Program-made: the position numbers and the translations under genes
Notes under the pieces: model-generated
The model's input: only the letters and a program-made list of their open reading frames with translations
The model's database searches: none
Told to the model about the DNA's origin: nothing
Assembly (NCBI RefSeq): GCF_039634785.1
Contig: NZ_JBBIAB010000021.1
Location: 1-64,000 of the forward strand
DNA from: Tistrella mobilis
GTDB taxonomy: Bacteria > Pseudomonadota > Alphaproteobacteria > Tistrellales > Tistrellaceae
Reading direction: 5' to 3'
Length of the DNA: 64,000 nucleotides
Shown here: positions 11,532 through 56,901 of the stretch, piece after piece
Layout: every line of letters begins with the position of its first letter
How positions within the stretch are numbered: position 1 is the stretch's first letter

Positions 11532-11565
11532 GAAAGCGGCACGCTCCTGAGAGCATGCCGCTTTC
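11532..11565 (-). terminator. Terminator of the split tRNA-Lys gene
   Basis: An imperfect stem-loop, GAAAGCGGCA.GCTC with its complement (arms 11532-11546 and 11551-11565, one mismatch), starting only 7 bp beyond the encoded CCA. On the minus strand it is followed by TTCGTTA. Placement immediately after the tRNA supports a terminator role. Confidence 0.65.
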
Positions 11566-11571
11566 CAAAGA

Positions 11572-11897
11572 TGGTGAGCCCGCTGGGACTCGAACCCAGG
11601 ACCCTCTGATTACTCCACCACCACGGCTTTCGCCGCCGCAACCGCAACCGGTGCGTTTGTGGCCCGGACCATCCCTTCACCCTGTCGGAACGCCCTCGGA
11701 CGGGGCGCTTGAGTTAGGTGGGCGCCGTCTGGCCTCTACACCTTCCGATTCCTCGAACCGAGGGATCGGCTTGGCTCGGGATTGCCGTCGCCGCGACGCG
11801 GACGGGTTCCCCGACTTTGACGCCTGTTTCATCCGGCCGTTTCCGGCCGGCGCTCCCAATCGAAAGTCAGATGCTCTACCGGCTGAGCTACGGGCTC
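11572..11897 (-). tRNA. tRNA-Lys(UUU), interrupted by a group I intron
   Basis: Two exons, 11863-11897 (35 nt) and 11572-11612 (41 nt), join to a 76-nt tRNA with encoded CCA. The acceptor stem GAGCCCG/CGGGCTC is 7 perfect pairs, the D stem is GCTC/GAGC, the anticodon stem is TCTGA/TCAGA, and the T arm is CTGGG TTCGAGT CCCAG. The joined anticodon loop reads CUUUUAA, so the anticodon is UUU (lysine), with the intron between U35 and U36. Without removal of the insert the gene does not fold as a tRNA. It decodes AAA/AAG lysine codons and, if it is the only tRNA-Lys(UUU) gene, splicing would be essential. Confidence 0.9.
11613..11862 (-). ncRNA. Group I self-splicing intron (IC3-like) in tRNA-Lys
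   Basis: The 250-nt insert follows group I rules: the upstream exon ends in U and the intron ends in G. Internal sequence matches the core of bacterial tRNA introns such as the Azoarcus tRNA-Ile ribozyme. It has a P2 stem CCGGCCG/CGGCCGG capped by a GAAA tetraloop (intron nt 13-30), CCCGAGCCAAGC (nt 83-94), the P7/guanosine-site segment GAAGGTGTAGAGGCCAGACG (nt 118-137), CCCACCTAA, and GGTGAAGGGATGGTCC (nt 181-196). A tentative P1 pairs exon CUUU with GGAG at intron nt 7-10, including the U.G at the splice site. There is no room for a homing endonuclease, and none is encoded. Confidence 0.88.
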
Positions 11898-11963: not shown

Positions 11964-11992
11964 ACCATAGGGGCGAGGCTGCAATCGGTCAA
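11964..11992 (-). promoter_or_regulatory. Sigma-70-type promoter for tRNA-Lys
   Basis: On the minus strand TTGACC (11987-11992) is separated by exactly 17 bp from TATGGT (11964-11969). Initiation near 11957 would leave a leader of about 60 nt before the tRNA 5' end for RNase P removal. Confidence 0.7.

Positions 11993-55840: not shown

Positions 55841-56901
<1,061 letters not shown>

Follow-up and report, generated by a model that had tools for sequence, protein, structure and literature searches.

A predicted group I intron within the anticodon of the tRNA-Lys(UUU) gene of Tistrella

The window, by which is meant the whole 64,000-nucleotide stretch of DNA analysed here, carries on its minus strand a gene for tRNA-Lys(UUU) (11897-11572) that is interrupted between U35 and U36 by an insert of 250 nt (11862-11613). 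Read along that strand, the order is a 5' exon, GAGCCCGUAGCUCAGCCGGUAGAGCAUCUGACUUU, then the 250 nt, and then a 3' exon, UAAUCAGAGGGUCCUGGGUUCGAGUCCCAGCGGGCUCACCA. Joining 11897-11863 to 11612-11572 gives a tRNA-Lys(UUU) with an encoded CCA, and the fold of the joined molecule beats all but one of 200 shuffled sequences (ViennaRNA). An earlier, sequence-only reading had claimed just such a tRNA once the 250 nt are removed, and its coordinates prove exact to the base. That reading also had a U before the insert, a G as its final base and a GAAA loop capping P2; all three are correct in the sequence. The neighbours of the gene encode a methyl-accepting chemotaxis protein on one side and an AMP-binding enzyme on the other. 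The closest named record sharing the locus is Tistrella mobilis KA081020-065 (NC_017956.1; L153). Genome G154, classed with the window's genome in one species, matches that record in its tRNA-search results down to the coordinates, and the window is accordingly taken to be from Tistrella, probably T. mobilis.

A consensus scan finds two promoter-like sites in the region, against 0.1 expected. The scan makes no call on the hairpin at 11533-11564, probably because its T tail is weak. With a promoter-like site upstream and a strong hairpin directly downstream, the intron-bearing tRNA gene looks like a single-gene transcription unit.

Programs that find tRNA genes do not, of course, expect such an interruption. 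Run without introns, ARAGORN reports zero tRNAs in the whole 64-kb window; run with introns permitted, it makes a wrong cut and gives the false name tRNA-Arg(UCG). The expectation that standard finders would miss or mis-call the gene was therefore justified on both counts. Alternative joins do as well in ARAGORN as the lysine join (123.7 for Thr(AGU) vs 123.7 for Lys(UUU)), and the splice site was therefore fixed from guide pairing and from relatives. The features are collected in Table 1.

Table 1. Positions in the window of the exons, the intron with its helices, and the flanking signals.
Feature	Positions	Strand	Basis
5' exon of tRNA-Lys(UUU): acceptor 5' strand, D arm, anticodon stem 5' strand, C32 U33 U34 U35	11863..11897	-	sequence; makes tRNA-Lys with the 3' exon
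Predicted group I intron, 250 nt, no ORF of its own, last base the terminal (omega) G	11613..11862	-	RF00028, model R2, covariation
3' exon: U36 A37 A38, anticodon stem 3' strand, variable loop, T arm, acceptor 3' strand, encoded CCA	11572..11612	-	sequence; makes tRNA-Lys with the 5' exon
P1: exon CUUU (11866-11863) with guide GGAG (11856-11853), U35-G wobble at the 5' splice site	11853..11866	-	pairing and register covariation, 20/20 aligned copies plus L288
P2: 7 pairs, GAAA tetraloop	11833..11850	-	alignment of copies
P3 (11824-11819 with 11726-11721), enclosing P4 (11814-11809 / 11781-11776), P5 and P6 (11769-11765 / 11749-11745)	11721..11824	-	covariation
P7: guanosine-binding helix (11734-11730 with 11671-11667), pseudoknotted with P3	11667..11734	-	5 pairs, 99% paired
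P8 (11720-11717 with 11681-11678) and variable loop	11678..11720	-	alignment of copies
P9 region, including a GAAA-capped hairpin (tetraloop 11631-11628)	11618..11662	-	GAAA in 20/20
Promoter-like TTGACC-17-TATGGT, 66 nt upstream of the tRNA	11964..11992	-	inferred from a consensus scan
Probable terminator: GC-rich hairpin directly after CCA (AAAGCGGCA...TGCCGCTTT)	11533..11564	-	read from sequence

Judged by covariance models and by covariation among orthologues, the insert 11862-11613 is a group I intron, as the sequence-only reading had proposed. The general model Intron_gpI (RF00028), named there as a check, agrees in part: it matches the core (11827-11720) at 26.9 bits (E 4e-4), but does not reach its gathering score of 50 bits, an operational threshold rather than a biological feature. 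A genome scan with RF00028 at the standard cut-off therefore reports no intron. Related introns in tRNA-Arg(CCU) and tRNA-Leu(UAA) score about 34-56 bits with RF00028, and several of these are likewise below the cut-off. The covariance model R2, whose training set holds tRNA-Leu, tRNA-Arg and phage introns and zero lysine introns, scores the insert at 78.5 bits (E 8e-16), its only match in the 64 kb. The score from model R1, which includes the window sequence, is not counted as evidence. Minimum-energy folding of the window sequence by itself is uninformative, with a z-score of only -1.6. The 250-nt intron has no reading frame of its own, and so encodes no homing endonuclease. Its size, its GAAA loops L2 and L9 and its host site in a tRNA anticodon loop fit subgroup IC3; the 11-nt receptor of P8 is, by eye, only a variant.

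Comparison of orthologues shows the predicted structure. The alignment holds 20 tRNA-Lys pre-tRNAs from a genome search and from a pattern scan of named genomes (18 pattern hits, one of them spurious). One match of the pattern scan, L146 from Mucilaginibacter, was a chance hit in a tRNA that has no intron. Counted over the tRNA helices, P2-P9 and the P3/P7 pseudoknot, pairing holds in 97.7% of cells of the 20 orthologues, and both sides have changed at 35 of 67 pairs. When partners are slid by 1-3 columns as a control, just 29-45% of cells are paired; none of 500 shuffles matches the pairing of the structure. Pairs in P3, P4 and P7 are retained in 19 or 20 of the 20 copies, with compensatory changes, and the two inner pairs of P7 each come in three types (UA/CG/GC at one, AU/GC/UA at the next). 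The terminal G and the GAAA loop of P9 (L9) are present in 20 of 20 copies, the GAAA loop of P2 in 18. Among three Tistrella genomes the exons are identical, and the differences lie mostly in the variable arms.

The same comparison locates the splice site. Every copy has four U in the anticodon loop, split 3+1 (U35|U36, as in the window) or 2+2 (U34|U35). The guide is GGGAG or GGAAG in copies split 3+1, with the site after U35 (15/15), and GGAG in those split 2+2, with the site after U34 (all five in the alignment, and L288 of G332 besides). In each of the 21 copies examined, splice register and internal guide sequence vary together. The guide thus moves by one base along with the site, a pattern that supports P1 (a short helix of four pairs, two being G-U) and defines both intron boundaries in the window. 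On the intron tree described below, register changes three times, always in step with the guide, which is too few for a formal test; the register-guide link has only about three independent changes behind it. Guide pairing and relatives also bear out the insertion between U35 and U36 that had been read from the sequence.

Whether the cell must splice this intron depends on whether it has another tRNA-Lys(UUU), a point on which the earlier claim of essentiality had been made conditional. RF00005 gives 59 matches in the window's genome, G000, and their anticodons were read locus by locus, except for two low-scoring matches that have no ARAGORN call. The sole other UUU anticodon is in an intact tRNA-Lys(UUU) on contig C48 (L106). 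This contig is 7.3 kb long and has 48% GC, vs 68% for the window. It carries 16S-23S-5S followed by Val-Thr-Lys-Leu-Gly-Leu-Arg-Pro-Ala tRNAs, an order known from the rRNA-linked arrays of Bacillus, and its 16S shares only 79.6% identity with the 16S of G001, a genome from the window's own genus. By these marks C48 is clearly a foreign contaminant, and its tRNA-Lys(UUU) is ruled out as a proof of redundancy. An intact second gene was indeed found in the assembly, but on a foreign contig, and there is no other copy among the anticodons read. C48 also carries the only 16S found in assembly G000, so that automatic 16S typing would err.

Absence elsewhere was judged from RF00005 lists together with anticodon reading. 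Absence by BLAST alone is unsafe; BLAST missed a tRNA-Lys(CUU) that was later found at 100%. For genomes G012, G056, G048 and G084, absence of tRNA-Lys(UUU) is at the BLAST level only. In two near-complete Tistrella genomes, no intact tRNA-Lys(UUU) was found among the Lys-length RF00005 matches of G001 (4 contigs) or among the matches listed for T. mobilis KA081020-065 (5 contigs); here, Lys-length matches were read, or recognised via identical scores in sister genomes, and none was UUU. Nor is an intact tRNA-Lys(UUU) among the Lys-length matches of Neomegalonema perideroedes and Sphingomonas sp. ID1715, and only a broken one is among those of Sphingomonas cremea. A tRNA-Lys(CUU) is present in these genomes; by established decoding rules, C34 cannot read AAA. 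The codon is in use, at 10 AAA vs 40 AAG in five genes of the window. Ribozyme splicing is therefore probably essential in Tistrella, because no other tRNA-Lys(UUU) is found that is not foreign, the CUU tRNA cannot read AAA, and AAA is used.

The intron is not peculiar to Tistrella. It occurs in the same gene in at least 20 other records, its site sliding within the U run from U34|U35 to U35|U36. Introns of the family were detected by the family model in 49 of 387 sampled alphaproteobacterial genomes (~13%), nearly all of which are at least 90% complete. With exons joined and tRNAs called, Leu(UAA) is the most frequent host, and Arg(CCU), Lys(UUU), Lys(CUU), Thr(GGU) and Thr(CGU) are hosts as well. 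Those in tRNA-Lys(CUU) use the same site (L281, L289 and L324, in genomes G213, G124 and G129, and L168 in a viral contig). Insertion is after U36 in tRNA-Thr(GGU) (L306, L309, L310, L313, L314 and probably L090; genomes G124, G245, G165, G258 and G325) and in tRNA-Thr(CGU) (L317, L318, L320 and L321; genomes G125, G210, G281 and G344). We know of no earlier report of group I introns in either threonine tRNA.

A tree of 68 introns (217 columns, quick method) clusters strongly by host tRNA. Of 21 Lys(UUU) introns, 19 share one part of the tree with those of Lys(CUU), Thr(CGU) and three phage tRNAs, and two (L065, L288) group with Thr(GGU). The data do not reject a clade uniting all 21 (p-AU 0.36), nor do they show a single origin. 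The tree suggests long residence at a site with occasional moves between tRNAs.

Phages carry the family too. Its motif AATCCCGAGCCAAGCC is found in at least 120 viral contigs (IMG/VR), and about 50 of the 80 viral loci read (L155-L234) look like real introns. Many of these lie in one conserved phage coding gene; others are in phage tRNA-Leu(UAA), Asn(GUU) and Gln. The only viral match to the lysine pattern, L275, which came from another scan, reads as a tRNA-Thr(UGU), a further phage tRNA with such an intron. A 2014 review knew phage introns in protein genes only; tRNA introns have been reported in Lak phages (PMC6784885).

Two loci recall mobile elements. In Sphingomonas cremea G124 (G406, C1:406700-409100; L460), an element of some 2 kb interrupts the native tRNA-Lys(UUU), which has no intron. 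Ten nucleotides of the anticodon loop are repeated on either side of the element, whose cargo is an intron-bearing tRNA-Lys(UUU) and an ORF that is TIR-like by eye. It is as if the element brought its own replacement for the gene that it broke. In G000, an intact tRNA-Lys(CUU) at C14:44884-44956 is followed, 11.3 kb downstream at 56240-56285, by a 46-bp copy of the gene's 3' half; the pair (L107, L108) resembles the two attachment sites that bound an integrated element.

The kind of intron is already known; what appears to be new is the host gene, tRNA-Lys(UUU), and the site. Bacterial tRNA hosts named in the sources consulted are Leu(UAA), fMet, Ile2(CAU) and Arg(CCU) (PMC8450103, PMC4033280, PMC7717549; general review PMC3984707). 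A close parallel is BbgpI, in tRNA-Arg(CCU) of Bartonella bacilliformis, which splices in vivo and in vitro; other alphaproteobacteria have an intron in this tRNA too (PMC7717549, which also cites an Agrobacterium intron described by Reinhold-Hurek and Shub in 1992). Like the Tistrella intron, BbgpI is alphaproteobacterial, is small (~230 nt), lies in a tRNA anticodon loop and sits in a gene missed by annotation; tRNA-Arg(CCU) introns found here belong to the same core family. BbgpI differs in its host and in its insertion after U36, and its splicing is experimental, whereas splicing in Tistrella is deduced. The tRNA-Leu(UAA) intron of cyanobacteria and plastids, found here in many alphaproteobacteria also, likewise interrupts the anticodon itself, after U34, and the alphaproteobacterial examples have core motifs in common with the lysine introns; the tRNA is a different one, however, and the lysine introns are mostly in a separate part of the tree.

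The Azoarcus group I intron (IC3) of tRNA-Ile(CAU) is small, with GAAA loops on P2 and P9 and a P3-P9 layout. The Tistrella intron resembles it in all of these, Azoarcus being compared by description alone, and differs in tRNA and guide. Earlier-claimed inserts in the anticodon loop of tRNA-Lys are 22-49 nt long; they are probably not group I introns, because a group I core takes at least some 100 nt and they are too short to hold one. In the part of the literature that was searched, no credible prior account of a bacterial tRNA-Lys with a group I intron came up.

We regard the following explanation as highly probable. The precursor would fold as P1-P9, with the guide GGAG pairing with the exon end CUUU and so placing the 5' site after U35. 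By the usual group I chemistry, an exogenous guanosine held in P7 would make the first cut, at the U-G pair of P1 and just behind U35, and the freed U35 would attack after the terminal G. The exons would thereby join in the anticodon loop to give the anticodon UUU, and the joined molecule would then be matured and charged as a working tRNA-Lys(UUU). That the intron itself catalyses these steps we infer from its structure and from relatives that have been tested.

Other explanations must, of course, be weighed. The insert might be another kind of element (a protein-spliced intron, a group II intron, an integrative element or an assembly error) that merely resembles a group I core, as its sub-threshold RF00028 score and its weak single-sequence folding would allow. 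This is scarcely credible: the same insert is present in independent Tistrella assemblies and in more than 15 other genomes, it has the P3/P7 pseudoknot, the guide covariation and the terminal G, and at the level of structure the covariation data refute the idea. Alternatively, the locus might be a relic, in which the tRNA gene is a pseudogene and its group I intron has decayed, with AAA read by a tRNA-Lys(UUU) encoded elsewhere. An intact gene does exist in the assembly, but GC content, 16S identity and tRNA array mark its contig as foreign, and the near-complete Tistrella genomes provide no intact copy, within the scope given above. Against a relic, too, three Tistrella genomes share identical exons and differ mostly in the variable arms, and every copy retains the helices; this view is very unlikely.

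It is unlikely, though less so than the foregoing, that the intron is unable to splice by itself and depends on a host protein in the cell, either a maturase-like synthetase or an RNA chaperone. A need for protein is presumed for group I introns generally, according to the part of PMC7717549 that cites PMC3984707, and a P1 of four pairs is weak. However, the relative in tRNA-Arg(CCU) that has been assayed splices itself in vitro, and the Tistrella intron is compact and GC-rich, with the GAAA tetraloops of P2 and P9 retained. Splicing by the intron itself, with guanosine, remains the preferred explanation.

A broader history can be imagined, which we consider rather doubtful. Here, the lysine-tRNA introns would form a lineage that uses reverse splicing to pass from one anticodon loop to another (Lys UUU, Lys CUU, Thr CGU and phage tRNAs), its target shifted by one base through matching changes in the guide, and that has now become an essential step, possibly a control point, in the reading of AAA in its hosts.

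Tistrella mobilis is a producer of didemnins. Ordinary annotation would leave these genomes without a tRNA that reads AAA. Since the real gene relies on a ribozyme, translation of one sense codon in such bacteria would rest on RNA self-splicing. With two splice registers in a single UUU run, nature has set up an experiment on splice-site choice by a ribozyme. The tRNA host range of this intron family appears wider than that given in the literature consulted (Leu UAA, Arg CCU, Ile CAU, fMet), and claims of missing tRNAs in alphaproteobacteria merit rechecking.
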